Assembly (NCBI RefSeq): GCF_026210795.1
Contig: NC_089452.1
Span: 1,426,001-1,490,000 of the forward strand
Source of the DNA: Rhizophagus irregularis
Lineage: Eukaryota; Glomeromycota; Glomeromycetes; Glomerales; Glomeraceae
Length of the DNA stretch: 64,000 bases
Reading direction: 5' to 3'
Part shown: piece after piece, positions 4,147 through 31,399 of the stretch
How the letters are laid out: the number at the start of each line of letters is the position of its first letter
Numbering within the stretch: the first letter of the stretch is position 1
Notes under the pieces: generated by a model
Seen by the model: only the letters and a program-made list of their open reading frames with translations
Database searches by the model: none
What the model was told of the DNA's origin: nothing
Position numbers and translations under genes: made by a program

Positions 4147-5110
4147 ATGTTTGATAAACAACTTAGCATACTAGATACTGATAATAATTTATCAAATGAA
4201 TTTTGCAAAGTTATTCAAAATTTTAATAAAATAAATATACAAGAAATTAAACCTACAATCAAAAATATTAACAATTATATTTTTGAAGGGGATTTTAATA
4301 TTGTAATTGATGAATTGTCTAACCTTATTTTTAATAAACTAAATAAAGGAGAAGATACAAATACAATAAAGAAATTAGTTCTTGATTATATTAATAATCA
4401 AATGACAACCTTACAAGAAATTTATATTTGGCTTTTAAATAATCAAAACAATTCAAATTCTCTATGTCTACTTGGATATTTTAATTATCATGGACTTGAA
4501 ATTGAACTTGATAAACAAATAGCAATTGAATTATATCAAAAAGCTGCAGAATCAGAAAATAGATTAGCTCAATCAAATCTTGCTAATGAATACATTTATG
4601 GCAAAAAAAATTATAATTTAGCTTTTAAATTATCTAAAAAATTAGCAGGAAATTATGCATATGGAATGAATAACTTAGGGTTTTGTTATGAAAAGGGAAT
4701 TGGGACAAATTATGATGAAGAAAAAGCATTTGAATTATATCAAAAGGCAGCTAATTTAGGAAATTTTGATGCAATAAATAATTTAGGTTGGTGTAATTAT
4801 GAAGGAATTGGAACTGATATTAATGAAGAAAAAACATTTGAATTATATCAAAAGGCAGCTAATTTAGGAAATTTAAATGGAACATGCAACTTAGGTTGGT
4901 ATTATTGTGAAGGAATTGGAACTGAAGCATGTTAATAAGTAGAAGACATTTGAATTATACCGAGAAGCAGCAAATTTATAGAATGTTGTAGCTCAATATG
5001 GTATTGCTTTAATGTATGAAATTGGAGATAGAATCAAAAAAGGTATAGATCAAGCAGTATATTGGTATAAAAAATCTGCTGCGCAAGGGCACCAAAATTC
5101 TAATTTATAA
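4147..5110 (+). pseudogene. Sel1-repeat protein, dead paralog 1
   Basis: The first 262 codons are open and match the four intact Sel1 paralogs downstream: the shared N-terminal helical region, then Sel1-like repeats with LGFCYEKGIGT and EKAFELYQKAA. The frame then breaks at the fifth repeat. Relative to its paralogs there is a 4-base CATG insertion at 4928-4931, giving a stop at 4933. Behind it, a CAG-to-TAG change (4940-4942) and a further TAG at 4979-4981 lie in the original frame. Paralogous sequence continues to the family stop at 5108-5110. It also lacks the MSNKQ N-terminus and the upstream module found before the intact copies. A shortened product is possible, but three lesions plus a missing promoter module argue for a pseudogene. 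Confidence 0.88.
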
Positions 5111-5134
5111 TCTTTGTAACATAATCAGTATAAC

Positions 5135-5540
5135 AAATCATTAAATAAAAATTTCCTATTAAAGAGTATTAGGGTTATCGATTTGAATTTCATAAATTAA
5201 AATTTCCAATTTTTGCAAATATACAAAATGAAAAGAAAATGTGCATTTATAAACTTACTGGATTTTAGAAATAGTTATTTGCGAATATTTGATAATTTTT
5301 GTGATTGTACTATGGAAATTATGATGTTTTTGTAGTGGTCCTTGCTGTAAAGTAATTATTTCTGTTACAGTTTTGTCATAAAGCTTGTTTAATAAGTTTA
5401 ATTTTATTGATAGCTATAAAACTTAAATAATGTGTTAATTTGTTCAGTGAGATAGACAGATTCCAAAAGTTACAGTACTTTATAGTACATAATTAAATAA
5501 GTTCAAAAATATTAAAAATATTGTATTAAAGATATATATT
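5135..5540 (+). repeat. 3' flank shared by Sel1 paralogs 1-3
   Basis: It begins with CCTATTAAAGAGT and ATGAATT/ATAAATT blocks. It resembles 7475-7860 behind paralog 2 and 18690-19060 behind paralog 3 over about 350 bases, so the duplicated unit was larger than the coding region. Confidence 0.7.
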
Positions 5541-6263
5541 TTAAAAAGATTTAATTAAAGACTCCATTAAATATTTAAGACAGTAATATAATATAATCTC
5601 ATAAATTTATAATCCCCTGTCGCACTAAGTATCACTCATACTAATTTTTTAAAATTGCGAGTGATTAGCTGAGTTTATAAATGACCGGGAATCTTCGTTT
5701 ACTTATTCCCCGGCCTCATATATATAGCCGGGAAATTACTAATTTTAATTTAAAATAATATTTAATGATTGACATGCTCCAATTTATTTCATGGGAAGGG
5801 AACATTAGGGGTTTTTCCTTTCGGGAAAAAAACCCTATTATTTCCAACTCCCCATGAAATAAATAATACTAATACCTTTTTGACTAAGTTATGAACGGCT
5901 TAATTGATAATTGATTTGTAATTAGTAGATTTATAGATTGGTCATTACTGCGACCGATATTGGCCAGTCAAAGATACCTTCTGACCGACCAGATTGACAT
6001 ACTTCCTAACCATCCATTTGTCCAACCATTTCAACTGATTTTTTTAAGTGCATTACAATTTAATAAATGTGTAAAATACAATAGTTTATAAATGCTAAAA
6101 TCAAATTTTGTTAAATAAAAGGCTAGCAGGTCATTCAAACGACCAGTTAAACAGTCAGTCAGTCAAAAGTTCTCGGACCAGTTATGACAACCGTTGCTAA
6201 TCATATATAGTAAGCATCTAACCATAATAGTCAATTGGAATTTTTATTATTAGACTTCTCCGT
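5541..6263. other. Intergenic, with a hairpin repeat
   Basis: No gene seen. It contains the hairpin at 5782-5864, short GACC/GGTC-rich segments and a CCGGG-containing dyad around 5680-5735. Confidence 0.5.
5782..5864. repeat. Near-perfect hairpin, possible MITE
   Basis: Left arm 5782-5818 (ATTTATTTCATGGG ... AGGGGTTTTT) and right arm 5823-5864 are inverted copies with a loop of only a few bases. Mismatches are confined to the middle of the stem. Confidence 0.75.
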
Positions 6264-6356
6264 TTTGCCACAACTGATCGACAAATTGCACTAACTTTAA
6301 AAATTTGCTGCGGAAGCACAGAGTTTGATCAACAGGTATTACAAATACAAATTAAG
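6264..6356 (+). promoter_or_regulatory. Conserved Sel1 upstream module, copy A
   Basis: About 95 bases ending roughly 45 bases before the ATG at 6400. It contains CTGATCGACAAATTG, TTTGCTGCGGAAGCACA, TTGATCAACAG and a TATA-like TATTACAAATACAAA. The same order is found before the three other intact Sel1 genes, so it is probably the core promoter plus 5' leader. Confidence 0.75.
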
Positions 6357-6399
6357 TGAAAAAAAAAAATAAATTCAACTCTTTCTTCAACTTTTCACA

Positions 6400-7464
6400 A
6401 TGTCTAATAAACAAATTAATTTCAAAAAAATTAATTTTTCAAACACTAATAGTTTTTTGCAAAAATTTTCTCTCGTTATTCAAAATTTTAATAAAATAAA
6501 TATAAAAGAAATTGAGCCTACAATCAAAAATATTAACAAATATGTTTTTGATGGAGATTATAATATTGTGATTGATGAATTAGTTAATCTCATTTTTAAT
6601 GAACTAAATAAAGGTGAAGATGCAAATGTAGTAAAGCAACAAGTTCTTTCTCATATTAATAATCAAATGATAACCTTACAACAAATTTATATCTGGCTTT
6701 TAAATAGCCAAAACCATTCAAATTCCATTTGTCTACTTGGATATTTTAATTATCATGGAATTGGGACTGAGCTTAATGAACAAAAAGCAATTGAATTATA
6801 TCAAAATGCTGCAGAATTGGAAAATAGATTAGCTCAATTAAATCTTGTTAATGAATATCTTTATGGGCCTTGTCTTAACAAAAATTTTAATTTAGCTTTT
6901 GAATTATCTAAAAAATTAGCAGAAGAAGAATATGCAAGTGGAATGAATAATTTAGGGTTTTGTTATGATACTGGAACTGGAACTAATTTTAATGGAGAAA
7001 AAGCATTTGAATTCTATCAAAAGGCGGCAGAATTAGGAAATTTTAAAGGAATGAATAATTTGAGTTGGTGTTATTATGAAGGAATTGGAACTGATATTAA
7101 CGAAGAAAAAGCATTTGAATTATATCAGAAGGCAGCAGGTTTAGGAAATATAAATGGAATTATTAGCTTAGGTTGGTGTTATAATAAAGGAATTGGAACT
7201 GAAGTTAATAAACAGAAGGCATTCGAATTATACCAAAAAGCAGCAAATTTAGGAAGTGATTCAGCTCAATGCGAACTTGCCACAATGTATGAAATAGGAG
7301 AAGATATTAAGAAAGATATAGATCAAGCAATTCATTGGTACAAAAAATCTGCTGCACAAGGAAACCAATTTTCTAAAAATAAATTGAAAAAAATTGAAAG
7401 TGAACTAAGTAACATTGTAGAAATCGAAGATTTAAATGAATTTTATAGTATGATAATTAATTAG
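6400..7464 (+). CDS. Sel1-repeat protein, paralog 2 (354 aa)
   Basis: Single open frame. Residues 1-107 form a polar helical N-terminal region (VIQNFNKIN, IDELVNLIFNELNKG, IYIWLLN). Residues about 108-330 carry six Sel1-like repeats of roughly 36 residues, with the motif LG-x-CY-x-x-G-x-GT ... A-x-E-x-YQKAA-x-LG. Sel1 repeats are alpha-helical solenoids that act as protein-binding scaffolds; the partner here is unknown. No signal peptide or membrane segment is seen. In glomeromycotan fungi similar Sel1 blocks often follow a kinase domain. No kinase domain precedes this one, so it may be a detached C-terminal half (inference). The start is fixed by alignment with the MSNKQINSKNINFSN ends of its paralogs and by the upstream module. 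Confidence 0.92.
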   Translation: MSNKQINFKKINFSNTNSFLQKFSLVIQNFNKINIKEIEPTIKNINKYVFDGDYNIVIDELVNLIFNELNKGEDANVVKQQVLSHINNQMITLQQIYIWLLNSQNHSNSICLLGYFNYHGIGTELNEQKAIELYQNAAELENRLAQLNLVNEYLYGPCLNKNFNLAFELSKKLAEEEYASGMNNLGFCYDTGTGTNFNGEKAFEFYQKAAELGNFKGMNNLSWCYYEGIGTDINEEKAFELYQKAAGLGNINGIISLGWCYNKGIGTEVNKQKAFELYQKAANLGSDSAQCELATMYEIGEDIKKDIDQAIHWYKKSAAQGNQFSKNKLKKIESELSNIVEIEDLNEFYSMIIN

Positions 7465-9005
7465 CAAATAGAAAATTTCCTATTAAAGAGTTTTAGGGTG
7501 TTCAGATTTGATTTTCATGAATTAAAATTTCTAATTTTTGCAAGTACACAAAATGAAGAGAATGGAGGTAATTAGACTTGTTGAATTTAACAATAGTTAT
7601 TTTTGAATAATGATAATTTTGTGGCTGACTGCGTGCACCATGAAAATTATGATGTTTTAAAGTAATTATCTATATCATAATCTTGTCATGTAGTTAGTTT
7701 TAATAAGTTTAACTCCTTTAATTGCTATTTAAATATCAGCTTTATTAATGTATTAAATTATTCATTTTTTAGTACTTTAAATAAAAAGTGATGATAATTT
7801 GTAATAATTTCAATATCACTTCAAAAATATTGTATTGACACATGAATCTATATATAATAGATATATCTCATGGAGACCTTCATATTGACTTTTTGTCCTA
7901 AACATGTTCTTTGGAAAGGGTCTGAGCTTTTATTTCTTTCATTTTTTCATTCCATATACCTGTATTTTGCCACATTTTTAAATTTTTTATTATCCTGCTA
8001 TAAGATAAATACACCATAACTTACCATGAATCATTGATTACATTTAATTGAAGGATAGAGCAGAAAATAAAGTGGAAGTGTCGAAATTATCTTTAATTCT
8101 TCCTTGGTCATGGAGTTATTAAATGAGTACATATTTTCTTTTCTTTGTAATAGAAGAAAGTAAAATGCTTCGTTAAACAATTTTAGAGAATATTACATGA
8201 ACACTTATAGCAACCAAATACTGTACTTGCATGAATTGAATATTTATGTATAGTTGTTTTATTTCCTTTATTTGATAATCTTCACAGTTCTTACTAAAAT
8301 ATTCCTGAATATCACTCTCCGAAAATTCTTTACATCCACTCAGACTTTCCCGAGTTAGGTCTAAAGTCTAATATATCCCAGTATGCTGGTCTATAGTTAA
8401 TAAACATGATATATGCACAAAGACCTAATGTATTAAATCATAATGAAAACTTACATAGTAACTCGATGGCATTTTAGGATATTCATTTGATACCGTTTAA
8501 AAATGTTCAATAAATCACTATCATTTAACAGTTTATATTCGGATATATCGGATATATCAGATGGTTTTGAGATAGGTAGCTTTGTTTTATTATTTAGCCA
8601 GCTTTCATCAATGCTTTTTATCTGGACAGTTTTGTTTCTTCGTCAAACAACACACTACATTCTTCTTCATTCTCACAATCTTTCCTTCTCTTCAATTATT
8701 TGCTCTGAGTATATATCAAATAAATTCATAAAAAAACAAAGTAATTTTATATATCCTTAAAAGTGAAAATCTAAGCAATAGAATTTTTTTTTAAAAGCTT
8801 GCCTTTTTTGTACTATTTTATTAGTGGTGGTGACGGAATGAACCTCCAGATCTTCCTTATTTTCAGTTGATTCATCATTCAAAATCTGTTAATGGAAAGA
8901 TGAGTTAATGATAGTATTCATTAAGTGTTGATATTTCCATTGATATGACAAAGTGGAGTCTCTTCACATTAATAGGGAAGGTACATAGCTTACTACTTCT
9001 TGGGG
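7465..9005. other. Intergenic with decayed, unassigned coding traces
   Basis: 7475-7860 is the shared Sel1 3' flank. Beyond that there is no intact gene. The minus strand between about 8900 and 8330 has protein-like segments in changing frames (SDISDISEYKLLNDSDLLN, then a GTAAGT donor near 8455, then RPAYWDILDFRPNSG), interrupted by stops. This suggests a dead gene I cannot name. Confidence 0.35.
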
Positions 9006-9496
9006 TTGGATTAGTCTGGTCCAGTCCAGTCCGGTCCTAAATTATCTTATTTATAACACCGGTATTCTTGGGTTGGATCAACAAGATTATGAGATGCAGG
9101 TCGCACTAAAAATTATAACATTAATTTATTATTTATTACCTCTGTTTTCATTGTAAACTAAGTATATAAATCTCAAAGTTTAAAATACGAAAAAAAAAAT
9201 GTATCAATTGATGCTGATCACGAAATAATTGAGTATAAAAAAATTTTTTATTTCTCGTACTTTATCTAAATGATAAATTATATATTATTAATAAAGTTTT
9301 CATTTTGAAATATCAAAATTTCACATTTTGGTATTTTGTGATATTAATATCATTTGATTTCTTATTTACGCTTTAAAATATAAAGAATTTTATATAATCA
9401 GTTCCAGTCTGGACTGGTCCTCAAATCTTGGACCAAAGACCGTGAAAACTGGTCTCAAGACTGATACAAGACCGGTCTTTGCTGGGACTGATCCAA
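9006..9496. mobile_element. Non-autonomous element with GGTCC/GGACC-rich ends
   Basis: The left end TTGGATTAGTCTGGTCC and the inverted right end TTGGATCAGTCCCAGC are similar. The interior is AT-rich with no coding capacity. A second, partial copy lies at 16311-16399. It sits just beyond the splice donor of the dead kinase exon at 9535, so it was probably inserted in that gene's intron. Confidence 0.6.
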
Positions 9497-9534
9497 ATAT
9501 ATGGCAAAATAAATTAAATTTTTTATTTTATTAC

Positions 9535-9939
9535 CTCATTTAAAAAAACTATACTAATATCTAAAGAATTATCCAAACTTTTGAATGCAAATTTTGTCCT
9601 GTAAATCTGTACCATTTTTGATTTTCATTATTCCAATAACTAATAAATCCTTCAGACCATTCAGCTAAATTAATTTTACCGAAGCCTCCTCTGGTAATAT
9701 AAGTAACTGAACATTTTGAAATTTCTCAAAAGGTATCTATTCAAGACATTTTGTACGATATAGAGCATTAAGTTATTGTAGTATTAATTCATCAATATCT
9801 TTATTTCCACTAGTCCAATTTTAATATTTACTTTAAATCTTTTCTCATTACAAGGTTGATACCAATAACTTCTTGTGCCAGGTTCATTACATTCTTCACT
9901 TATGCCATATACTTTTTTTATTTTTTCCAAGTCTTCCAT
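9535..9939 (-). pseudogene. Dead TKL-like kinase, first exon
   Basis: On the minus strand from an ATG at 9939 the sequence follows the N-terminus of the fungal kinase family represented intact at 44580: a CNEPGT...W...CNEKRF cysteine block, a W-T/L-S-G-N-x-D-I-D segment, then the glycine loop TRGGFGKINLAEW and a lysine-strand equivalent FAFKSLDNS. The exon ends LNE|GTAATA, matching the donor position in the intact gene. At least two frameshifts and in-frame stops separate these blocks. No second exon or catalytic lobe was found to the left. Confidence 0.8.
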
Positions 9940-12900
9940 ATAGTAAGTAAATTACTTTATCATCAATTTCTTCTGATAGGGTAGTTGAATCAACAGAAGA
10001 AATTTTAACATGTACCTTTGAATAAAAGAACAAAAATATATTCTTTATTTATTAAATATTATTTGTAATAAATTATAAAGTGAAATTGCATTTACCTGAT
10101 ATTTATTAAAATTGGTATTTTTTACATAAATAAATTATCTAAAGAAAAATCAAGAAATTTAACACATCTGTACTAGTGTCTCTTGACCTAAATATTTTTT
10201 TTTAAACAATTCCATACTAAAAAATCTTGAAACAGATTGTTTAGTCAACTATTAATAACAATAATTTTAACAAAAGTTATTTTTATTCACAGAGCTAATT
10301 GAATAAATTATATTTATGCATGATAGAATGACAGATGTATTATGTAAATCCCATTTTACAATTCATGCCAACAATTTTGTCATATGATGGCTGAATAAAT
10401 ATTTTTTCTGTTTTAAAAAAAAAAATAATGAGGCGTGAAGAGACAGTGGAGTTGTATAAAAAAATAATTTACAAGATTTAAACTTAATATAATAAAATAT
10501 AAGATTTTCAGATTATTGCGCATATAATTTTTGCTATTTCATAAAAAAAAGAAAAATATTTTTAGGTGATTTCGTAATGCAAATGATTTAATTTATTATT
10601 AAGATCCGAATATCGATTATCTGATTTGAATAAATATAGAGAATCTGGATGATAGATGATCAAATCGTAACATTGATTTTTTTTTAAAAAAAAATAAACT
10701 TATAAACTATATGAGAAGTTTCTAAAAACATAAAGAAAATCCTTTCTATTAATCTATTATTGATATAACTTGAAAATGTGACTCTTCCGAAGGAAATTAT
10801 TGCCAAAAGACCTTCCCTAGATATATTTAAGTAATATAATAATACGGTACACAAAATATTTTGTATATCTAATACTATACAAGTTAGTAATAACGGTACA
10901 AAGGCATAATATAAAATAGATATCTATTGTATATACAACGATAATCAAATGATCAAATGATGTCGGAATTTCAAATTGCGATTATGATCAATAGATAGGC
11001 TTGTGTATTAATACTTTGTGCGCGTCACGACCATAACAATAACTCAACAAATTTTCCCATGAAATATTTTCTATAAAGGTATTAAAAAAATCATTTTTCC
11101 TACATAAAATTTCTTTCGCACGTATTTTTTTTAAATACTTGTAGGTTTTTGTCTTAATCTCTAACATTTATTAATAACTTGTAGCTTTTTTTTATTAACT
11201 CTCCATTTAGAAACATAAATATCTTATACTTTCAGTTACTTCTAGTCAAGCTATTTTTGCCTATTAATTATAAAAATTATTAAAAAAACGTATCCTAAGC
11301 AACTTCTAGTTAAAAGTGCTGTGAGTTGTGGATAGTTACGGACAACCGAAAAAAACGTCAAGCCTGAATAGTAATAGTAAATAATGATATTTTTATTATT
11401 CTGGTAAGTGGAAATGGCTAAGCTGGGATGTATAAGGGACAAGTGCACCTAGAGTGCTTTGGTTATCCTCCTCTTCTAGAAGTCTGGTTACCTTCAATGA
11501 GAATAAAAATATCTCAAGCTATGTCGCAGACTTCTGTATGTGGGGCCCGTCCTTTTGGTGGTGGGTCTCATGTCTTATTATCAATGTGACAGTACCTCTG
11601 CACGAGTTTGATCACTCACGATATTCGTTAATGTCAGTTGATAGTAGGTATGGGGGCTTGAATCTGTCTTTTCTGCAAAGCTTACTTAGAGTACTCGAGT
11701 CTTCTAACCTATTTTATTATATATTATATATTTAGATTTCATTCTCTCCTGTTAGATTCAACTTTTACTAGTAAGGATTGATATACAGTATTGTAAGGTT
11801 TTTTATTGGAAGAATAATACGAATAGTAGTATAGTATGGTGGACCAAATGATTATCGTATAGTCATGTGAAATGATATACAGAGTTGTATATTTTGTAAA
11901 CCTACTACTGCGTATATTAGTATTGCGTATATATGTACTACAATAATCAATGAGTAATACGAATATAAATAAAATTTCTATTTATTGGTTGTAGAGGGTA
12001 AAGATTAGATAAAGAAGATTTAGCGCCATTAAAATTCATAAAACATACAATATACCTGATAGAGGGCGAGACAAAAGACCCACAACTCGCAATGTTCAGT
12101 CTAACAAGTGTAAAAGTGTAAAGGTAATTAAAAATCATGAGTTTATTTAATTATGATTTATTTTATTAAATTTTTTTTTATATATTAGTTAATGCACAGG
12201 TTAAAAAATCGAACATTACAAAATCAACTGTGAAATGTAGACGCGCAAATTCTATCAAGAAAACCAAAACAATTAAATGTTACATACAACGGAGTATAGT
12301 AAATATACTCAACATCAGTTATTACGTCATACAATACTCAATAGACAACCCATACTATGCTACTATTCGTCTTACCTTTTTTGAAATGTTTGCTTAACTT
12401 AAATTAAAAGTATAATGTTGTTTGATTGAAATTATTATAATACTGAATTTTATAAATTTAATTCTCTAATGATTCAATTTATAATAATATTCTTTTTCTG
12501 AATAATTAAAGAAAAAAAAATGCAAGAAATTTGTCTCACTTTAACTTAATATTGCATTGTTAAATTGCTTGTTTAATTTATTCTAATTATTTTATTAATC
12601 AAAGATGAAGTAAATATTGTAATATAATTATTTAATAAAATTAATGCCATAAAAAATATGCTATTTTTAGAAAAACATTTTGAACTTTTTTCCTTACCCG
12701 TTTTTTTTTATAAATACTTTGTTTAAATAACATTTATTTTAACGCTATTTACATGTAGAAAGAAGTCTGTTTAATCAATTTACTTATTTAGACTTTGACA
12801 TTTTATCATTATATTTGAATTTTAATAATTTATTTATTAAATTGTGCTTTGACACCTTTAATTACTAAATTTAAACTCTAACACTTTATACTAAATTCAA

Positions 12901-13529
12901 ACACACCAGAATTAGGTTTAATATAAATTTATATATAATTTACGGTTTAATACATACTATATGGATATTTTATAAAAAATTATGTCATTTATTAAATATA
13001 AATTTAGTATAATTTATTTATACTATATAAATAAACATTATGCAAATATTTTATATACTAATTAAAATATATATAAAATTCTTTACTACATATTTTATCT
13101 AAAACTTTCATATTGTATTTTATTTAAATTTAAATAAATGTAAAAATGCTGGTTAGATATTTGTATATTAAATTGCATGATACATCAATTTCAATAACTT
13201 TGATCAAAAAAATCAAATGACTAAAGAAAGAACAAAAAGTCGTTAAAGTCGTTGTTAAAAAAATTCTCAATGATAAAGTATACGAATTTACTAAATTAAT
13301 TCAAATATTGAAGATATTAATTTGTTTATTGTTAATCAATTACCAAATACAGTAATTTTAAATAAAACTGCGCTTCATTATTAAACCCTGTTACACATAG
13401 TTAATCAACATTAATTGTGGACAGTATCGGAATCACCACTCCGAAAATTATACTCAATTTGGCCTTACAATAAAATGATACGCCACGGTCACCACGCCCC
13501 TATTTTTTTTCCTTCTTTTCGTTTACAAT
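9940..13529. other. Long intergenic stretch
   Basis: No intact gene. On the minus strand at 9945-10150, an exon pair split by an intron (KYQ | VHVKISSVDSTTLSEEIDD) has a counterpart at 42773-42940. An inverted pair of arms (11817-11840 and 12350-12373) may mark a ~560-base element. The open frame at 11454-11735 has no protein-like features. From 12400 to 13450 it is almost pure AT-rich sequence. Confidence 0.5.
11817..12373. repeat. Inverted repeat pair, possible MITE
   Basis: ACGAATAGTAGTATAGTATGG at the left recurs inverted at the right with one mismatch (12350-12373). Weaker similarity continues inward. No clear target duplication. Confidence 0.45.
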
Positions 13530-15077
13530 ATGTCATGTTCAAAAATATTTTCAGGAAATTTACCTGAATTAATATATGAAATCATCAAAAATTTTCAGAA
13601 TGATTTTTCAACCTTACATTCATGTGTTTTAGTTAATAGATTATGGTGTCGTTTAGCGATTCCATTATTATGGGAAAATCCATTTTCAATTACTACCGGA
13701 AGTTATAATTTTATTGAAGTTTACTTATATAATTTGAATGATTATTTAAAAACAAAAATAAATGATTATCAAATTATTAATTATTTATTACCTTCGAAAA
13801 CACTTTTCAATTATCCTAGTTTTATAAGATATTTGAACATATATAAAGTTACTCCTTCTATTGAGAGGTGGTTAGAAGCTAATGATAAAACTTATTTGGT
13901 ACATAATGTAACTTTGAAATCAGTATCTGAATTTAAAAGATTAATTAATATGTCACTAATTAAATTATTTATTGAAAATGAAGTAAATTTACATACTTTT
14001 AAAATTGAGTTAAACAACAAACATTATGATGATGATATCATTTTTGATGGCGTTTTTAGGATAATTTTACAAAATCCAAATTTCATTCATAATAGTAGAA
14101 ATTTAAGCCTTTCTATTGTAAATAATTGTGAAAATACGTTAATTAAAAATCGTATATCACAAATAATTAATTTACATCAAAATCTTCAAAGAATTTTATT
14201 TAGTTATAATAATTTATCTTTATATCAATCATTATTATTATCAAAAGAATTTAATTGTTCAAATACTTTAAATACAATCATTTTTTATTATGTCAATTTT
14301 AATGGTATAAATAATTTAGTTAAAGTATTTGAAAATTTATATGTTTTGGAATCTGTTCATATCATTCATTGTTCTTCTTTAGATAGGTTTATTCAACAAA
14401 TTATTAACTTAACCAAACCATTTAAACTAAAATCTTTATTTATAAGCTGGGGTATGCAAATCGATCCATTGAAATTATTATTACAAAAATATGGTAACTA
14501 TTTAGAAAATTTCAAATGCGGGAGTTACGGAATTCAACAACAGCTCTTAGAATTAATTATGAAATATTGCAGAAATATCAAATTTCTTGACTTATATGAA
14601 ATTACTTCTCTAGTATTTGGTTTAATTGAAAATATTAAACAAAATCTTAATCATCTTTCAATCAATGTAGTGAATTATCAAGAATATTCAATATTACGAA
14701 ATTTAGGACAAGTACTCCCTTCTAAACTTGAATATTTAAGTTTGGCCCTTTACATGATTAAAGCAAATGATTTTGAAGTATTCTTAAAAAACTCTCAAGA
14801 TACTTTCTTTAAGAAATTGTTAATTAATCATTTAATACGAGATCATGATCGTATTGATTTTATTGATATTTTACCTCATATAAAAGAATATATAATGAAG
14901 AAGAAAAGAGTCAAATATTTGGCTATTAAGAATACTTCATCCGCTTTTGATTTTAGAGAGATAGATTTGTCTAATTTGAAAGATGAAGTAAATGAATTTA
15001 AGTTATATAATATTAAAGTTCTAAAATATGTTAATTTATCTACTGATATTTATAGATTTATAAATGAAATTGATTAG
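13530..15077 (+). CDS. F-box / leucine-rich-repeat-like protein (515 aa)
   Basis: Single open frame. Residues about 9-52 (LPELIYEIIKNF...LHSCVLVNRLWCRLAIPLLWENPF) match the F-box pattern LPxELLxxIF...L...CxLVNRxWxxxxxPxLWxxP. The remainder is leucine- and asparagine-rich with irregular LRR-like spacing. F-box proteins recruit substrates to SCF ubiquitin ligases through Skp1; the substrate is unknown. It is clearly distinct from the two F-box paralogs at 27412 and 31400, which resemble each other. A pyrimidine-rich leader (TTTTTTTTCCTTCTTTTC) directly precedes the ATG. Confidence 0.88.
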   Translation: MSCSKIFSGNLPELIYEIIKNFQNDFSTLHSCVLVNRLWCRLAIPLLWENPFSITTGSYNFIEVYLYNLNDYLKTKINDYQIINYLLPSKTLFNYPSFIRYLNIYKVTPSIERWLEANDKTYLVHNVTLKSVSEFKRLINMSLIKLFIENEVNLHTFKIELNNKHYDDDIIFDGVFRIILQNPNFIHNSRNLSLSIVNNCENTLIKNRISQIINLHQNLQRILFSYNNLSLYQSLLLSKEFNCSNTLNTIIFYYVNFNGINNLVKVFENLYVLESVHIIHCSSLDRFIQQIINLTKPFKLKSLFISWGMQIDPLKLLLQKYGNYLENFKCGSYGIQQQLLELIMKYCRNIKFLDLYEITSLVFGLIENIKQNLNHLSINVVNYQEYSILRNLGQVLPSKLEYLSLALYMIKANDFEVFLKNSQDTFFKKLLINHLIRDHDRIDFIDILPHIKEYIMKKKRVKYLAIKNTSSAFDFREIDLSNLKDEVNEFKLYNIKVLKYVNLSTDIYRFINEID

Positions 15078-17484
15078 TTATTTAGTTGCTATTTAAAATA
15101 TCAGATAGAAATATTTTTTTCAATTTTATAAATGAAAGTTGTTTTATAAATTAGTATATATCCTAAAAATAAATATTCATTTATTAATAATTAATATTTT
15201 AATAATGGGCAATTTTATAAATTTTAAATCATTAATGTACTAGAATTAACTTGAGCTTTTGTATATCTCAAATTACCAATTAAACATCTCTTTTAAAAGG
15301 TAACCATTTGTATACTTCCCATTTATCATGTAAATGATATTTTCTTACCTTAAATTTTTCTAACCAGCAATTAGAAAACCTTAGCTAAATTTCTTGTATA
15401 TGTGTTGTGCGTCAAAGCGTCAGATGCAGCTGACGCACGTTAGATGTCTATCGACACTTGACGCCGCGTCAGTTAATAATTGACAACTGCTGTCTTTCAC
15501 ATTTTTTATTATTTTATACTCGCCAATTTCTTTTACATTCTATAGTTTGATTTTTTAATTTTTATAAATATACGTTAATTAAATTATTAACCATTCCTTA
15601 AGATTTTATATTTAAGAATCCCTTAGGATTTTATAATTTTTATAATTTTATAGTTTCCTTGAAGATATTTGAATGAGTTACAAGGATTTTTTAAAGAATT
15701 TATGGATCCTTAAGGATTCTAGACAAATTGAGTGAATCCTTATGGATACCAATGCCAAAAATTTTACTGATGGATGAAAAGGTTTAGTTAAAAAAAAATT
15801 ATTAAAGTTTTAGCAATTCACCTTCATCTTAAACCATAAACTCATCTTTCAGCATGAGTTAATCTTCGTCTTCAGCCACGAGTTCGTCCTTGGACATATA
15901 TTTATAGTTTCTTATTTGTCATCAAGTTCAATAGCATCGTTACATTCATCTTCTGAATAATTGTCTTTGCTTTTTCTTATTATAATTTATACATATATTG
16001 AGATGGTTGGAAGTTCGCGTATGTGTTTAAATAAGAAATAATGAAATATTTAATCAGCAAAACGTGGGATTTAAATAAGAAATTGGCAAAAAATTTAAAT
16101 TATAAATTGGAATTAGGAATTGTAATTGAAGTTACAATTATCCTAATAACAAAACATTTTGTAGAACTCTGAGTTCTGATTTTAAAAAAGTTTTATATAA
16201 CTTTATTATAAATAAATTCATTTCGATAATTTGGAATTAAAATCCAAAATAGAAATAGATGAGCACAAAAATTTGGGTTCAATTTATTGTATACAAAAAA
16301 ATCATATGATCAGTCCTGGTCCGGACCAGTCTTCAAATCTTGGACCATAGACCATGAAGACCGATGCAGGTCCGGTCTTTGTTGAGACCAATCTAACCCT
16401 ACTTCTTCTCCGGAATAAGCAGACCCTATTTAGAGAAACCTCATTTGACAAAGATTACCTTTGTGGAACAAACAAACCGCCTTGTCAAATAGGTATTTTT
16501 TCTAGTTAGGCCATCTCACAAGAGTAACCCAACATTGACTTATACGAAAAATATGCCTAACCTGAATTTGACTTCACTTACGGGACTGATACGGATGATT
16601 TTTAGGCTTTACTATAATTCATAACGAAGTTTGTTTCTTAGAAGAATACGTGCAATCACCCCTAGCTATTTATAAAAAAAGATCTATATATGCAGTGTAA
16701 CACATAACACATATGACAGAGTCACGTTTTCTTTAAATCATTTTAAAAGTCTAATGATGGAAATCAAAGGAATCAAAGCTTCGCCGTAAAAGTCACGTGT
16801 TGGTTAGGAATAACCAATCATATTATGGATCGCACTTATATGAAAATTATACAATGTAAATTTACTTGAAAAAAAACTTATAATTTATTAATGAATTTTA
16901 ATGAAGTGTTTTTCATAAGTTTGAGCCTGATATTTTAGAATTTTATATTTTTTAATGTTATAAATAAATATGTTTAATGATTAAAATTATTGACGTGATT
17001 TAAGTATCAATCTATATCTAACGAACGTTGGCACAACATACTTAATGGTATTAAAAATCTCATTTGATAAAAATATTTATTATTAATTCACATATTCTAA
17101 TTTATATAATTAAATTTGATGATGCTTCTAGTTTTAGTTTGTTTCAGAAAAGCTGAAAAGAGAAAATAGAAAGTATAGTTTTTTCACAACATACTTATTT
17201 GTATATGATGTGAAATTTTTGTGGCAAAATTTAAATCATCTTGTTAGTTTCAGTAAAAATGGCAATAAGTATTGTAATGATTATTTAATTTTAAATAAAG
17301 AAAAAATTTTATTTGCGTGCTATTCTGTCTTATTCCATCATATTATGCTTATTTATGTTTTATGCATGTACAAAATAAAAATTTAGTTTGCATAGTTTGC
17401 ATAAAAAAAAATTTTTTATACAATAATTATTTTTTACTGGTTATATAATAAGCTATGTAATTTTTATTATTTAGATTTCTCCGT
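15078..17484. other. Intergenic stretch
   Basis: No intact gene. It holds a cluster of five GCGTCA/TGACGC hexamers (15409-15471), repeated AAGGATTC-type blocks (15600-15730), a decayed element end (16311-16399), and from about 16845 a region homologous to the upstream flank of the next Sel1 gene (20665-21240). An acidic minus-strand fragment near 15920-15980 (KDNYSEDECNDAIELDDK) may be an exon relic. Confidence 0.5.
16311..16399. mobile_element. Partial copy of the 9006-9496 element
   Basis: It matches the right portion of the element at 9399-9496 (CTTCAAATCTTGGACCA and GTCCGGTCTTTG blocks). The left half is absent. Confidence 0.6.
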
Positions 17485-17577
17485 TTTGCAACAGCTGATC
17501 GACTAATTGTACTAACTTTAAAAATTTGCTGCGGAAGCACAAAGTTGATCAACAGGTATTACAAATACAAATTAAGT
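17485..17577 (+). promoter_or_regulatory. Conserved Sel1 upstream module, copy B
   Basis: Same order of blocks as at 6264-6356, including GCTGCGGAAGCACA and TTGATCAACAGGTATTACAA. The homology extends about 25 bases further upstream in copies A and B (TTTTTATTAT and CTCCGTTTTGC). Confidence 0.75.
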
Positions 17578-17638
17578 TGTAAAAAAAAAAAATAATATAT
17601 TCAAACTCTCTTTTCTCCTTATTTTTAAATATTTCACA

Positions 17639-18655
17639 ATGTCCAATAAACAAATTAATTCCAAAAATATTAATTTTTCAAACACTAATATTTTGTTGCA
17701 AAAATTTTCTCAAGCTATTCAAAATTTTAATAAAATGAATATAGAAGAAATTGAGCCTACAATCAAAAATATTAACAAATATGTTTTTGATGGAGATTTT
17801 AATATTGTGATTGATGAGTTGGTTAATCTCATTTTTAATGAACTAAATAAAGGTGAAGATACAAATGTAATAAAGCAACAAGTTCTTGATTATATTAATA
17901 ATCAAATGATAAATTTAAAACAAATTTATATTTGGCTTTTAAATAACCAAAACAATTCAAATTCTATTTGTCTTCTTGGATATTTTAATTATCATGGAAT
18001 TGAAACTGAACTTAATGAACTAAAAGCAATGGAATTATATCAAAATGCTGCAGAATTAGAAAATAGATTAGCACAGTTAAATCTTGTCAATGAACATCTT
18101 TATGGACAAAGTTCTAACAAAAATTATAATTTAGCTTTTGAATTATCTAAAAAATTAGCAGAAGAAGAATATGCAAGTGCAATGAATAATTTAGGATTTT
18201 GTTATGATACTGGAATTGGAACTTATTTTAATGGAGAAAAAGCATTTAAATTCTATCAAAAGGCAGCAGAATTAGGAAATCTTAAAGGAATGGTTAACTT
18301 AGGTTGTTGTTATTACGAAGGTATTGGAACTGATACTAATGAAGAAAAAGCATTTGAATTATATCAAAAGGCAGCAGATTTAGGAAGTATAGATGGGATT
18401 ATTAGTTTAGGTTGGTGTTATAATAAAGGAATTGGAACTGAAGTTAATAAGCAGAAGGTATTTGAATTCTATCAAAAAGCAGCAAATTTAGGAAGTGATA
18501 TAGCTCAATGTGATCTTGCCTCAATGTATGAAATAGGAGATGGAATTATGAAAGACATAGATCAAGCAATTTATTGGTACAAAAAATCTGCTGAACAAGG
18601 AAACCTATTTTCTAAAAATAAATTGAAAAAATTTGAAATTAAGTTAAATAAATGA
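17639..18655 (+). CDS. Sel1-repeat protein, paralog 3 (338 aa)
   Basis: Intact single frame. The same N-terminal helical region (FSQAIQNFNKMNIEEIEPT) is followed by six Sel1-like repeats from about residue 108, ending with DIDQAIYWYKKSAEQG and a lysine-rich tail. It is one of the closest relatives of paralog 2 in the window, slightly shorter at the C-terminus. Predicted cytoplasmic scaffold; no enzymatic motif. The start aligns with the other paralogs. The 3' flank to about 19060 resembles those of paralogs 1 and 2. Confidence 0.92.
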   Translation: MSNKQINSKNINFSNTNILLQKFSQAIQNFNKMNIEEIEPTIKNINKYVFDGDFNIVIDELVNLIFNELNKGEDTNVIKQQVLDYINNQMINLKQIYIWLLNNQNNSNSICLLGYFNYHGIETELNELKAMELYQNAAELENRLAQLNLVNEHLYGQSSNKNYNLAFELSKKLAEEEYASAMNNLGFCYDTGIGTYFNGEKAFKFYQKAAELGNLKGMVNLGCCYYEGIGTDTNEEKAFELYQKAADLGSIDGIISLGWCYNKGIGTEVNKQKVFEFYQKAANLGSDIAQCDLASMYEIGDGIMKDIDQAIYWYKKSAEQGNLFSKNKLKKFEIKLNK

Positions 18656-19403
18656 ACTTATAGTCTTCTTAAAATGTTTAGTATAACAACGATTAATAAA
18701 TAAAAGCATTCATTCCTATTAAAGAGTTTGAGTTATCAGATTTGAGTTTCATGAATTCAAATTCTAATTCTTGCAAATATAATGTAAAAAATTAAACTCA
18801 TTGTATTTAGTAATAGTTATTTTGTGAAATCATGACTTTAACATGAAAAGTATAATTTATTGGCTTTTAAGTTGACTATCTATATCATAGTCTTTTCATG
18901 TAATTTACTTTTTACTTTTTTAGTGGTTTTACCTTTTTTGATTTCTATTTAAATATCAATTTTATTAGTGTATTAATTTATTAATTTTTCAAGTTTTTTA
19001 AACGGGAAAATTTGTATTTCAATATGATCATTCTTCAAAAATATTGTACTGAACATATAAATTTTTTAAAAAGCTTACATTCATATAATTAATCATTTCA
19101 AGTAAATACATAAGGTTCCCGGTAATATTTTATTAAAATGTATATAAATGTAATTCAAATTAATTTGAAGATATTTCACTTATAAAATTGTTTAGCGTTT
19201 TCACTAATGTGCACTTAAACATTAGAATTACTAAAGATGTTTGTTAAGACACTAGATACTAACTTATTTAATAAATTTCCTTTAATAAATTCTATTTTTA
19301 ATTTAAGGCTTGGAAAATTTTTATTTATTTCGAATATAAATATATTTGTAAGGAGCGTGCCAGAAATCAGCTGATTTCGTTCAATTAGAAGACTACTGAA
19401 CTA

Positions 19404-19625
19404 GGGATTGGAATCGAAAATCGAATCTTTTCAAGATTTTTTCTTATAGACGACCAACTTGACTTTGGATCAGTTTCTAATTCAGCAAAAATAATCAGCA
19501 CTTGGCCGGCATGAAAAATTACTTTGGAGTCAGGTTAACTTATATGTAAAAAATTGCTGAGAATCGATTCTCGAGAATCGATTTTACTATGTTTTGTCGA
19601 TTTTCGATTAATCGATTCCAATCCC
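19404..19625. mobile_element. 222-bp MITE with TA target duplication
   Basis: The ends GGGATTGGAATCGA are perfect inverted repeats for 14 bases and continue imperfectly. TA flanks both sides (19402-19403 and 19626-19627), as expected of Tc1/mariner-mobilised elements. There is an internal palindrome around GAATCGATTCTCGAGAATCGA. No coding capacity. Confidence 0.85.
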
Positions 19626-19757
19626 TATACTGAACTCACCCACCTGATGATTGGCTAAAATATATATATATCAAATTTACTGATTAAAAAAATAAGAACT
19701 AAATTGAACTTGCCATGATTTGTTTGTATATATAAACAACCACAAAATAAATATCAA

Positions 19758-19862
19758 CCCTATAAAAAATGTTATCCATTATTTCTGTAAAAACTCCGTA
19801 AAAATGAGCCTTTTACGGAAATAAGATGGAATATAAAAAACGGATTGACTTTTTTTACAGGG
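19758..19862. mobile_element. Short CCCTATAAAAAA-family element
   Basis: Ends CCCTATAAAAAATG and inverted CCCTGTAAAAAAAG. An internal hairpin TCCGTAAAA/TTTTACGGA has a 7-base loop. Its interior resembles 60028-60214. Confidence 0.65.
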
Positions 19863-20179
19863 CAGGAGTTTTGCAACGTGTAAGCAAATTATTGCAGACA
19901 AGCAACACCCCAAGTTAAATCGCCAAAGCTTAGTAGAAGAATGTACATCTGCTTTTAATGAAGCTAAAAAAAATAACTTTTATTAAAAATAAAAACTATA
20001 AATACTATGAGACTATACCTTCTACAAAAAAGTTTTATGTCATGCAAAGTGACAACTCCAACTCAGAATACTCCTACTTTATCTACTCCAAAACAACTTC
20101 AAAGTTAGTTTACTATTAAAAAAATATTAGAACATAGTAATTGGGAATATAAAGCAATGCATATGAAACCAAAGTACAA

Positions 20180-20344
20180 CCCTATAAAAAATGTTTGTGC
20201 TAAATTTGTGCAAAATGTGTTAATCATACGATATTTGTTTAGAATTTGTTCGAACTTTATATTATTTTTTAGTACAAATTTCGAAATAAATGTTGTATGA
20301 TTAGCCCATTTGGCACAAATTTAGCATAAACCTTTTTTATAGGG
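20180..20344. mobile_element. 165-bp CCCTATAAAAAA-family MITE with CAA duplication
   Basis: Inverted ends of about 50 bases (CCCTATAAAAAATGTTTGTG versus CCCTATAAAAAAGGTTTATG, then GCTAAATTTGTGC in both). CAA flanks both sides directly, consistent with a 3-base target duplication. Confidence 0.8.
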
Positions 20345-21240
20345 CAACGATAGGCTTTGAAGGTTTACAGTAGATAAATTACATTAGCAAAGTGAAATTA
20401 AGTTAATAAGATTCTAAATAAACTTTTTTTTGTTTTTTATAAAGATAATACATTTATTATATAATTTTATTAATTCATAGTCTAATGTATATTTTAAATT
20501 AGTTTACATCGGTATGTTTTATATTTATATCACATTTTCAATGTATATGTATATGAAAAAATGTTCATGTTATACCTCAAGTATTGATATAAGTTGATAT
20601 CAGATATGTTAGGATGCATATCAATGTATTACAAAAAATAGTAATCACTTTTTTCTATACATATATTGAAATTATACACCGTAAATTTATTTGAAAACTT
20701 ACAATTTATTAATAAATTTGAATGAAGTGTTATTCTATAATTCTAATTAATCTAATATTTTAGGATTACATATATTTTAATGTAATAAATAAATAACAAA
20801 AAATTATTAAAGCTAGAAAATATAATACTTGATTATACATTGTTTGGAAATCTGACACATGTTAGATATCTCCTAGCGCAAACAACACCTAAAGCACAAC
20901 GTGCATATTAAAATCCTTGATAAAAAAATTTTTTATTGATTAATATCACATTTTCTACTTAAATGAATTGAATTTGAAATTAGTTTGCCTCAGAAAGCTG
21001 GAGAGAAAATAGTGAGTATAGTTTTTTCACTTTGTTAGTAGTTCAGCCAAAATGGTAACAAGTTATTAAATGATTAATATGAAAAGATTCGAAAATGCTT
21101 TTGTTGTTGTTCTATCTTATTTCTATTGTATGCTAATTTATGTTTCTTGCATATACTACTTTCTGCTTATTGGAAGTTTTTATGAGTGCATAAAAAATAA
21201 TTTTCTATTATACTGTAACAGTTGTCCAACTGGAATTTGA

Positions 21241-21336
21241 TTTGCCACAGCTGATCGACAAATTGCACTAACTTTAAAAATTTGCTGCGGAAGCACAGAA
21301 TTTGATCAACAGTATTATAAATACAAATAAGTTGTG
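21241..21336 (+). promoter_or_regulatory. Conserved Sel1 upstream module, copy C
   Basis: Same blocks as the other copies; here the TATA-like part reads TATTATAAATACAAAT. It ends about 50 bases before the ATG. Confidence 0.75.
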
Positions 21337-21388
21337 AAAAAAAATAAATTCAACCTTTTTCTTTTTCTTAATTTAAAATTATTTCACA

Positions 21389-22393
21389 ATGTCTAATAAG
21401 CAAATTAACTCCAAAAATATTAATTCTTCAAACACTAATAATTTATTACAAAAATTTTCTCAAGTTGTTCAAAATTTTAATAAAATAAATATAATAGAAA
21501 TTGAGCCTACAATCAAAAATATAAAAAATTATATTTTTGATGGAGACTTTAATATTGTGATTGATGAATTGGTTAATCTTATTTTTAATGAAATAAATAA
21601 AGGGGATGATACAAATGTAACAAAGCAACAAGCTCTTGATTATATTAATAACCAAATGATAACCTTACAAGAAATTTACATTTGGCTTTTAAATAATCAA
21701 AACAATTCAAATTCTATTTGTCTACTTGGATATTTTAATTATCATGGAATTGAAACTAAACTTAATAAACAAAAAGCAATTGAATTATACCAAAAATCTG
21801 CAGTATTAGAAAATAAATTAGCTCAATTAAATCTTGCTAATGAACATCTTTATGGAAAAAGTGTTATCAAAAATTATAATTTAGCTTTTGAATTATCTAA
21901 AAAATTAGCAGAGGATGAATATGCAAGTGGAATGAATAATTTAGGGTTTTGTTACGATACTGGAACTGGAACTGCTTTTGATGAAGAAAAAGCATTTGAA
22001 TTTTATCAAAAGGCAGCAGAATTAGGAAATTTTAAAGGAATGGTTAACTTAGGTTGGTGTTATTATGAAGGAATTGGAACCAATATTAATGAAGAAAAAA
22101 CGTTTGAATTATATCAAAAGGCAGTAGATTTAGGAAGCTTATATGGAATAAGTAACTTAGGTTGGTGCTATAATAAAGGAATTGGAACTGAAATTAATAA
22201 ACAGAAGGCATTTGAATTATATCAAAAAGCAGCAAATTTAGAAAATGATATAGCTCAATATTGTCTTGCTTTAATGTATGAAATAGGAGATGGAATTGAA
22301 AAAGATATAGATCAAGCAATTTATTGGTACAAAAAATCTGCTGCACAAGGACACCAATCTTCTAAAAATAAATTGAAAAAAATTTGTAAGTAA
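21389..22393 (+). CDS. Sel1-repeat protein, paralog 4 (334 aa)
   Basis: Intact single frame with the family N-terminal region and six Sel1-like repeats (LGYFNYHGIET, LGFCYDTGTGT, LGWCYYEGIGT, LGWCYNKGIGT, LALMYEIGDGI), ending in a short KNKLKKICK tail. Predicted protein-binding scaffold without catalytic residues. The start aligns with the other paralogs. Its 5' flank, back to about 20665, matches that of paralog 3, indicating duplication of a unit with its promoter region. Confidence 0.92.
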   Translation: MSNKQINSKNINSSNTNNLLQKFSQVVQNFNKINIIEIEPTIKNIKNYIFDGDFNIVIDELVNLIFNEINKGDDTNVTKQQALDYINNQMITLQEIYIWLLNNQNNSNSICLLGYFNYHGIETKLNKQKAIELYQKSAVLENKLAQLNLANEHLYGKSVIKNYNLAFELSKKLAEDEYASGMNNLGFCYDTGTGTAFDEEKAFEFYQKAAELGNFKGMVNLGWCYYEGIGTNINEEKTFELYQKAVDLGSLYGISNLGWCYNKGIGTEINKQKAFELYQKAANLENDIAQYCLALMYEIGDGIEKDIDQAIYWYKKSAAQGHQSSKNKLKKICK

Positions 22394-22805
22394 ATGAACT
22401 TTATAATCTTCTTAAAATATGCAGCATGATAATCAATTAGTAAATAAAATTTCTATTAAGGATTTTTGGTTTATTTTATGCGAAAGGGAATGTAAGTTAT
22501 ATAAAACAGTATTGGTTATTTTATAAATACATGTTAACTTTTATGATATTTAGTTTGTAAAAATTAATAATTATGTATATGGTTAATAATTTCATATTTT
22601 AAGTAGCAATCAAAAAAATTTTTATTATAGTCAAATAAATAGATATTGTACTTTAATACAATATTTTGAAGTATAAAATTTCTGTTAAATATCTATTGGT
22701 ACATTAATTAAAAGGGTAGATAGCTTAAATTTGGTTTACTTTCATTAATAATTAGTTCCATCATGAGTATGCTTTATACTAATAGCACATATTGCTACTG
22801 TTAGA
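22394..22805. other. Short intergenic stretch
   Basis: AT-rich, no gene seen. It separates paralog 4 from the transposase remnant. Confidence 0.5.
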
Positions 22806-23220
22806 GACCTACATCCATGCTGTTTTATTCCAATAATCATTAACAGCAGGTAAATCATCTTTTTTTTACCTTTTAGTGCTCATAGATTTTTAGAGGTATA
22901 AATAAAAAATGGCATTAATTTCTCTGTTCCAGTTGTGTTACATGTAAGAAGAATTGTAACTTTTTTTGATCTCTTTTTTCTGTAGAGCAAACCTCTTGAA
23001 TAGTCTTGATAGAGTTTTTAAAGGTAGATCTCAATATATACCTAAAATGACAAAAAAAAAAATATTCACAAATAAGTGCATATAAAATCTGAAAAATCCA
23101 GTATTCACCTATCTCATCACAATTAAAGACATCATTTAGATCATAATCCTTAGTTATTTCACGCAACTTTTTTCTTTCTACATCTAAAGTTTCAAGTGGT
23201 GCACTTGCTGCTTCGCCCAC
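22806..23220 (-). pseudogene. Dead Tigger/pogo-type DDE transposase fragment
   Basis: Read on the minus strand, the pieces are LREITKDYDLNDVFNCDE followed by a GIY block whose expected tryptophan is a TGA stop (the family pattern is NADETGLYW), then TCNTTGTEKLMPFFI (CNATGTEKLPP-like) and DDLPAVNDYWNKTAWM (family pattern ...YWNKTAWM). They lie in different frames with stops, plus a possible intron at the GTGAAT site near 23106. Upstream DNA-binding regions and the final catalytic Asp region are missing. It abuts the flank of Sel1 paralog 5 exactly where similarity to the other paralogs' flanks ends. Confidence 0.8.
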
Positions 23221-23365
23221 TATTTCTATTATATGCTTATTTATGTTTTATGTACAGTATATACTTTATGCTTACTAGCAACTTTTTATGCATAATGGTT
23301 CAATTTATATAGAAATAAATAAATAGTTTTCTATTATACAAAATTATTTTTTACTTAAAATTGTG

Positions 23366-23455
23366 TTTGCCGCAGCTGATCGACAAATTGCTACTAACTT
23401 TAAAAAATTGCTACAGAAGCACAAAATTGATCAACAGTATTACAAATACGAATAA
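23366..23455 (+). promoter_or_regulatory. Conserved Sel1 upstream module, copy D
   Basis: Most diverged copy: GCAGCTGATCGACAAATTG, then GCTACAGAAGCACA (GCTGCGGAAGCACA elsewhere), TTGATCAACAGTATTACAAA. Order and spacing are kept. Confidence 0.7.
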
Positions 23456-23515
23456 GGAGAAAAAAAATAAAATAAATTCAAACTCTCTCTTCTCCTTATT
23501 TTAAATTATTTCATG

Positions 23516-24565
23516 ATGTCTAATAATCAAATTAATTCCAAAAATATTAGTTTTTCAAACACTAATAATTTATTACAAGAATTTTCTCAAATTATTCAAA
23601 ATTTTAACGTTAATAAAATAAATATAAAAGAAATTGAACCTACAACAAAAAATATTAACGATTGTATTTTTGAAGGGGATTTAAATGTTGTAATTGATGA
23701 AATAATTAATCTCATTTTTAATGAACTAAATAAAGGAGAAGATGCAGATATAATAAAGAAATTAGTTCTTGATTATATTAATAATCAAATGACAACCTTA
23801 CAAGAAATTTATATTTGGCTTTTAAATAATCAAAACAATTCAAATTCTCTATGTCTACTTGGATATTTTAATTATCATGGACTTGAAATTGAACTTGACG
23901 AACAAAAAGCAATTGAATTATATCATAAAGCTTCAGAATTAGAAAATAGAGTAGCTCAAATAAATCTTGCTAATGAACATCTTTATGGGAAGGAGATTAA
24001 TAAAAATCATAATTTAGCTTTTAAATTATCTAATAAATTAGCAGAAGAAGAATATGCGTGTGGGTTTAATAACTTAGGTTTTTGTTATTTAAATGGAATT
24101 GGAACTGATTTTAATGATGAAAAAGCATTTGAATTATATCAAAAGGCAGCAGATTTAGGAAATTTTAAAGGAACCATTAACTTAGGGTGGTGTTATTATG
24201 AAGGAGTTGGTACTGATATTTGTGAAGAAAAAACATTTGAATTATATCAAAAGGCAGCAGAATTAGGAAGTCTAAATGGAATATTTTGCCTAGGTTGGTG
24301 TTATAATGAAGGAATTGGAACTGAAGTTAACGAGCAAAAGGCGCTTGAATTATATCAAAAAGCAGCAACTTTAGGAAGCGATATAGCTCAATATGATCTT
24401 GCCGCAATGTATGAAATTGGAGAAGGAATTAAACAAGACATAGATCAAGCAATTTATTGGTACAAAAAATCTGCCGCATCAGGAAACCAATCAGCGCAGG
24501 AAAAATTAGAAGAACTTTTGAAAGTTGGTATAGATGATACATTACATTCGAAAATTATTTTATAA
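23516..24565 (+). CDS. Sel1-repeat protein, paralog 5 (349 aa)
   Basis: Intact single frame. The ATG at 23516 aligns with the other MSN starts; an extra in-frame ATG directly before it (23513) arises from local change and would add one residue. The family N-terminal region has a small insertion (FNVNKIN). Six Sel1-like repeats follow (LGFCYLNGIGT, LGWCYYEGVGT, LGWCYNEGIGT). The C-terminus differs from the other paralogs (AQEKLEELLKVGIDD). Its repeats are closest to those of the dead paralog 1 (both have LEIELDEQ/LEIELDKQ), so these two may be sister copies. Confidence 0.92.
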   Translation: MSNNQINSKNISFSNTNNLLQEFSQIIQNFNVNKINIKEIEPTTKNINDCIFEGDLNVVIDEIINLIFNELNKGEDADIIKKLVLDYINNQMTTLQEIYIWLLNNQNNSNSLCLLGYFNYHGLEIELDEQKAIELYHKASELENRVAQINLANEHLYGKEINKNHNLAFKLSNKLAEEEYACGFNNLGFCYLNGIGTDFNDEKAFELYQKAADLGNFKGTINLGWCYYEGVGTDICEEKTFELYQKAAELGSLNGIFCLGWCYNEGIGTEVNEQKALELYQKAATLGSDIAQYDLAAMYEIGEGIKQDIDQAIYWYKKSAASGNQSAQEKLEELLKVGIDDTLHSKIIL

Positions 24566-25837: not shown

Positions 25838-25980
25838 ACTTTACAGATCGTATCGATGGCTTAATGCGCAGTAACTGCATATATGTAATTTCTTTACGAT
25901 TACATAATGTGGTCACTATGTATTTATAACGTAGTTACTGCGCATTAATCCATCGCTACGATCTTGAAGTTCTGTAAAGT
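25838..25980. mobile_element. 143-bp foldback element
   Basis: Inverted ends of about 40 bases: ACTTTACAGA ... GATCGTATCGATGG, then TTAATGCGCAGTAACT, with the right arm carrying a 6-base insertion. ATT flanks both sides as a possible 3-base duplication. Confidence 0.75.
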
Positions 25981-26084: not shown

Positions 26085-26440
26085 TTAATGTTACTCTTTT
26101 TAAATATTAGTTTAAGGTACTTAAGATTAGACAAATAACTTGAATAAGATTTTTATTACTAATTTCATCGTGACTTATATGATCAGTAAGTGGTCCACTT
26201 GTATTTTTGATTAAACCTCCAATCGGAATACCATTAGATTTTAAATTTTGCAAAAAGGAAAGGACAAATTTGTACCCGATTCCGTGAAATGTTGGCTTGC
26301 TCACCACTATCAGTTCTAAATTTACAAAGGATGTAAGATTCGCTAAGGTTGTCTGATAGTAATCTTACAATATTGTATGGTACTTGCATGATGTTTAATT
26401 AACGAATTTTCAAGAAAAATTCAAAAGTAATTCTGTGTTA
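26085..26440 (-). pseudogene. Dead F-box-family fragment
   Basis: On the minus strand it matches the middle of the F-box gene at 27412: CTTGAAAATTCGTTAATTAA, TGTAAGATTACT, then IKNTSGPLTDHISHDEISNKNLIQ in frame (intact copy IIKNTNGLLSE...ISHDEISNRNLIQ). The F-box itself and the C-terminus are absent, and the pieces are out of frame. It is inverted relative to the intact gene 1 kb away. Confidence 0.85.
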
Positions 26441-31353: not shown

Positions 31354-31387
<34 letters not shown>

Positions 31388-31399
31388 TCTTTAAAAAAA

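Follow-up and report, generated by a model that had tools for sequence, protein, structure and literature searches.

A slowly changing, promoter-like upstream module precedes the four intact genes of a tandem Sel1-repeat family in Rhizophagus irregularis

We analyzed a 64,000-nucleotide stretch of DNA from Rhizophagus irregularis (NC_089452.1, positions 1,426,001 to 1,490,000, forward strand; hereafter, the window), which carries five Sel1-repeat genes, all on the same strand (A at 4147, B at 6400, C at 17639, D at 21389, and E at 23516), and a short module shared by the upstream regions of the four intact ones. Sel1-like genes are described as one of the families present in high copy number in R. 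irregularis, with tandem arrays occasional in expanded families (PMC8647823); its gene number is reported to have increased through lineage-specific family expansion (PMC6123716), and Glomeromycotina genomes except that of P. occultum are reported to contain, on average, 3400 Sel1 motifs (PMC9453076). A tblastn search with all five genes (E up to 1e-3) detected no additional copy in the window. A first-pass annotation, made from the sequence alone, had described a five-member same-strand series; its gene count stood, but the copy at 4147 is a pseudogene that lacks the module.

4147..5101, + strand: Sel1 pseudogene A; frame broken at 4933-4935, paralog homology running on to 5101, no upstream module
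6400..7464, + strand: Sel1-repeat gene B; 354 amino acids, single open frame; PF08238, E 6e-51
17639..18655, + strand: Sel1-repeat gene C; 338 amino acids, single open frame; 84% identical to B
21389..22393, + strand: Sel1-repeat gene D; 334 amino acids, single open frame; 80% identical to B
23516..24565, + strand: Sel1-repeat gene E; 349 amino acids, single open frame; PF08238, E 1.6e-49; 73% identical to B

The length of E is counted from the ATG homologous to that of its paralogs (23516), and its open frame starts one codon earlier, at 23513. In A, a small insertion at 4933-4935 shifts the frame relative to the paralogs, and more stops lie downstream in the old frame. PF08238 scored above the Pfam cut-off in five stretches each of B and E (two of the four intact proteins were scanned). 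In the predicted structure of B, residues 131-330 were all helices, with a predicted local distance difference test score (pLDDT) of 83-98 over this block; the best Foldseek matches of the model were Sel1 proteins (E 1.5e-12 to 6ok3), and the Sel1 proteins matched by profile were 6ok3, 4bwr, 8sxq, and SEL1L. By these results, the products of B-E are Sel1 alpha-alpha solenoids with the same repeat as SEL1L/Hrd3 and the bacterial Sel1 solenoid proteins. They differ from these in an N-terminal region that had no Pfam family above the cut-off in the two proteins scanned and was poorly modeled in B (pLDDT <50 at residues 1-59 and 62-73). A peptide pattern from the first 137 residues of B matched nine stretches of viral_contigs, none of them encoding a relative.

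Upstream of each intact gene lies a module that ends 43 (B), 62 (C), 57 (D), or 58 (E) bp before the ATG, its position and block order relative to the start codon being constant in all four. The modules were delimited by alignment and profile, and each contains a TATA-like block with a putative promoter role:

6265..6356, + strand: conserved upstream module of B, 92 bp
6337..6348, + strand: TATA-like block of B, 63 bp upstream of the ATG
17486..17576, + strand: conserved upstream module of C, 91 bp
17557..17568, + strand: TATA-like block of C, 82 bp upstream of the ATG
21242..21331, + strand: conserved upstream module of D, 90 bp
21313..21324, + strand: TATA-like block of D, 76 bp upstream of the ATG
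23367..23457, + strand: conserved upstream module of E, 91 bp
23438..23449, + strand: TATA-like block of E, 78 bp upstream of the homologous ATG

A whole-module profile search of the window recovered these four copies (E 1.4e-25 to 2.1e-27), all on one strand and at a similar distance before an ATG; the next match among those listed had E=1.2. The block CTGATCGACAAATTG was exact at 6274, 21251, and 23376 and had one mismatch at 17495; its two remaining matches (48898 and 58586), with three mismatches, are at chance level (2.1 expected), and a total of six was reached in 2 of 100 shuffles. TTTGCTGCGGAAGCACA was exact at 6304, 17525, and 21281 and had three mismatches at 23407, with no further matches (chance expectation 0.03; four matches were reached in no shuffle). 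TTGATCAA starts at 6325, 17545, 21302, and 23427 within the modules and occurs eight times in total on the + strand of the window, and the TATA-like pattern TATTA[CT]AAATAC starts at 6337, 17557, 21313, and 23438, with no other occurrence on the two strands of the window. The four-copy alignment showed that the invariant parts are TTTGC..CA.CTGATCGAC.AATTG, ACTAACTTTAAAAA.TTGCT, GAAGCACA, TTGATCAACA, and GTATTA.AAATAC, that a pyrimidine-rich stretch follows the TATA-like block, and that the start context CACAATG is common to B-D and differs in E. Block matches, alignment, and profile thus confirmed the earlier claim that a fixed-order module precedes each intact gene; the distance of 40-60 bases given for it was close to the 43-62 bp obtained with the boundaries used here, and its length, given as ~95 bases, was 90-92 bp.

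A direct repeat in the module, TGATCRAC (spacing 50-51 bp in all four copies), was rejected as being at chance level: a 9-mer repeated with one mismatch or none was present in 100-116 of 300 shuffles per module and in 375 of 600 intergenic windows drawn at random. The module core also bears a faint, nonsignificant likeness to Sel1-coding DNA near the gene end (5070-5091, E 1.2; 22332-22353, E 3.6; 7343-7362, E 17), and such 3' coding DNA is a possible origin of the element.

Local alignment of the flanks revealed how the family arose. The upstream regions of C and D share patchy homology from about -800, in pieces 70-79% identical; those of D and E are 75% identical across the last 270-290 bp, module included; and pieces of 3' flank are common to A-B, A-C, and B-C (68-74% over 184-390 alignment columns). 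The Sel1 copies arose by tandem segmental duplication, after which their flanks decayed; this common ancestry is why the module is shared, but it does not account for the module alone changing so little. The first-pass annotation had called the surrounding DNA highly diverged; the flanks are indeed far less conserved than the module, but they are not simply unrelated.

The rate of change was compared using mean pairwise Jukes-Cantor distances among B-E, with 2000 bootstraps. The mean distance was 0.082 for the module, 0.231 for the adjacent leader, 0.64 for DNA further upstream, and 0.264 and 0.114 for synonymous (dS) and nonsynonymous (dN) change, respectively. The module/dS ratio was 0.31 (95% 0.16-0.53) and reached 1 in none of the 2000 bootstraps; the module/leader ratio was 0.35 and reached or exceeded 1 in 0.5% of them, the leader being 2.8 times more diverged. 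Among B-E, 17-27% of synonymous sites differ versus 3-12% of the module. Variable columns numbered 13 of 89 in the module against 15 of 43 in the leader (p 0.008), 37 of 55 further upstream (p 1e-10), and 18 of 57 at fourfold sites (p 0.013), while gapped columns numbered 4 of 93, 20 of 63, and 45 of 100 in module, leader, and upstream DNA. Only 2 of 914 coding-alignment windows of 89 columns were equally conserved. In these comparisons, the module is a slow island within decaying flanks, slower than the neutral DNA of the same copies, and these rates support the earlier suggestion of selection on a common promoter.

A neighboring tandem pair of F-box-like genes (27412-28812 and 31340-32797, with starts at 27412 and 31400; Pfam score below the cut-off) served as a control. 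Its coding DNA is 79% identical (dS 0.39), and no upstream homology was found past about -35, where 50 bp bins to -400 were 34-60% identical, like unrelated AT-rich DNA. Since this pair has no shared upstream block, tandem duplicates here do not automatically retain one.

Copy A provided a second point of comparison. No module lies upstream of it, and in that DNA the alignment to the other copies does not rise above background. An unrooted coding tree (200 bootstraps) placed A + E against D and (B,C), with 100% support for both internal splits. Since both sides of the tree carry the module, its absence from A is most simply explained by loss, provided that the root does not fall on the A branch itself. 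The A branch is the longest (0.10 versus 0.04-0.07), and dN/dS is 0.51-0.70 in pairs with A (261 codons) versus 0.37-0.46 in the others (334-347 codons), as expected for a decaying copy.

Proximal and core promoters of tandemly duplicated fungal genes form a short conserved block within ~150 bp of the ATG, and their flanks decay after duplication. The module resembles these in its closeness to the ATG, its TATA-like element, its pyrimidine-rich stretch, and its decaying flanks; it differs in that it was matched to no named element. Its position, the TATA-like block 63-82 bp before the ATG, the pyrimidine-rich stretch, and the CACAATG context of B-D fit an ordinary fungal proximal promoter. We therefore favor, with a probability of about 0.74, the reading that the module is the proximal/core promoter of this small tandem Sel1 family, inherited with the duplicates and maintained by purifying selection. 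On this view, repeated duplication would have copied an ancestral gene as a segment comprising coding region, this promoter, and flanks; the flanks would then have decayed, while purifying selection preserved the promoter, ~90 bp long, wherever the copy still works. Activators may bind at the upstream blocks (CTGATCGAC.AATTG, ACTAACTTTAAAAA.TTGCT, GAAGCACA, and TTGATCAACA), TATTAYAAATAC would be the TATA-like element, and transcription would start within the pyrimidine-rich stretch shortly upstream of the ATG. Because these elements, their order, and their spacing are common to the four genes, a common set of factors would be expected to act on them, and co-regulation is plausible. Since the sharing itself stems from duplication, it is uninformative on co-regulation, and only the slow decay informs.

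Several points weigh against this reading. The module/dN ratio was 0.72, with 10% of bootstraps at or above 1, which does not clearly set the module below the rate of nonsynonymous sites. In codons that all four genes conserve, third positions varied at 43 of 193 columns versus 13 of 89 in the module, a nonsignificant difference (p=0.088), although this test is cruder, being based mostly on twofold sites and understating neutral change. The module boundaries were set after viewing the alignment, so the p-values are optimistic, and it is the effect size that carries the selection argument. Homology is doubtful in places of the upstream alignment, the comparison spans only four related copies, and the F-box-like control is a single pair, more diverged than the Sel1 copies. 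Finally, A may have lost the module before or after it died as a gene, or the two events may be unrelated.

The best surviving alternative, which we judge improbable, is that no selection is involved: the tandem duplication of the four genes would be recent, and the module would be the still undrifted part of their shared upstream DNA, its copies perhaps kept similar by gene conversion. The segmental duplication seen upstream of C-D and D-E and in the 3' flanks of A-B-C is real, and the third-position comparison is compatible with this view; however, the excess of synonymous over module differences, the module/dS ratio, and the greater divergence of the leader all argue against it, and conversion of the module alone, between a diverged leader and diverged upstream DNA, would be contrived.

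Slightly less probable again is a transcribed element, either a regulatory sequence of the 5' untranslated region or the 3' end of an intron there, with a branch-point-like ACTAAC followed by AG. Each of the four upstream regions does contain CTAAC, between -109 and -127, with AG after it in the alignment. However, in the 600 nt upstream, C has no donor-like GTA[AT]G, those of B (-190), D (-261), and E (-572) do not correspond in position, and the TATA-like block sits downstream of ACTAAC. The intron, resting on ACTAAC without a shared donor site, was rejected as weak. RNA-level roles in general are disfavored because the module shows no fold beyond shuffles (z-scores -0.67 to 0.05) and no copy contains an ATG; Rfam at gathering scores and a tRNA scan likewise gave no match. 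Of the two options in the earlier proposal of a common promoter or 5' leader, the promoter was thus supported, and a structured leader became less likely, also given the TATA-like block inside the module.

A dispersed or mobile element remnant lying upstream of Sel1 genes by chance is very improbable: repeats and a Tc1-type transposase are present in the window, but the module has only four copies there among the matches listed, always on one strand and at the same distance before a Sel1 ATG rather than at random positions, and its core pattern had no exact match in prokaryote or viral collections, which contain no fungal genomes.

The surrounding DNA is AT-rich (G+C 22-31% per 2 kb across the window), and the 64 kb contain only 16 open frames of at least 120 amino acids. 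Pfam matches above the cut-off were to Sel1 repeats, the Tc1-type transposase, and a P450, with F-box-like matches below it. The Tc1/mariner-type transposase is an open frame at 43324-44325 on the - strand (PF01498 and PF13358). The cytochrome P450 lies at 51266-52970 on the - strand, with PF00067 in frame 51897-52970 (the only frame scanned), and probably extends into frame 51266-51823 past an intron starting GTAAGT. A frame at 45139 appeared kinase-like by eye only. An inverted repeat between C and D (20180-20344; 68 nt arms, 85% complementary, 29 nt spacing) resembles a small hairpin or an element like a miniature inverted-repeat transposable element, and another lies at 25845-25964 (32 nt arms, 94% complementary, 56 nt spacing). 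Three pieces of 26133-26426 are complementary (86-88%) to 28081-28405, within the F-box-like gene 27412-28812, and may represent a fragment, in antisense orientation, of a related gene. In R. irregularis, N6-methyladenine (6mA) is reported to sit at ApT motifs, both within genes and in upstream regions (PMC8298701); one idea is that the ApT sites in the GATC and AATT of the module could carry 6mA, such sites being common in AT-rich DNA.

The genes studied here resemble the expanded Sel1-like families of Glomeromycotina, given the high copy number of Sel1-like genes in R. irregularis and the occasional tandem arrays of expanded families; the published accounts, in the portions consulted, treat copy number and methylation rather than a shared upstream module (PMC8647823, PMC9453076). 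Among the matches listed from the open-licence literature, no title or abstract opening pointed to the module or to a shared Sel1 promoter. The kind of element is thus familiar, and the element itself was not found in the literature searched. To our knowledge, few promoter elements have been described in arbuscular mycorrhizal fungi.

It is possible, though rather doubtful, that the module is the cis-regulatory signature of a genome-wide Sel1 subfamily, the promoter having traveled with the coding region during expansion in arbuscular mycorrhizal fungi to give a one-factor regulon of scaffold proteins, in which copies that lose the module decay into pseudogenes. As a feature of the sequence, the conserved promoter-like block of this tandem paralog family, for which copy A is a natural negative control, is real. 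It has the look of a basic promoter that the genes share and selection has maintained, which is useful to know and not surprising. For the very large Sel1-like families of arbuscular mycorrhizal fungi, the module offers a concrete, searchable sequence for asking which members are expressed, and, apparently under selection and missing from the dead copy, it lets one ask whether Sel1 members respond together in symbiosis.

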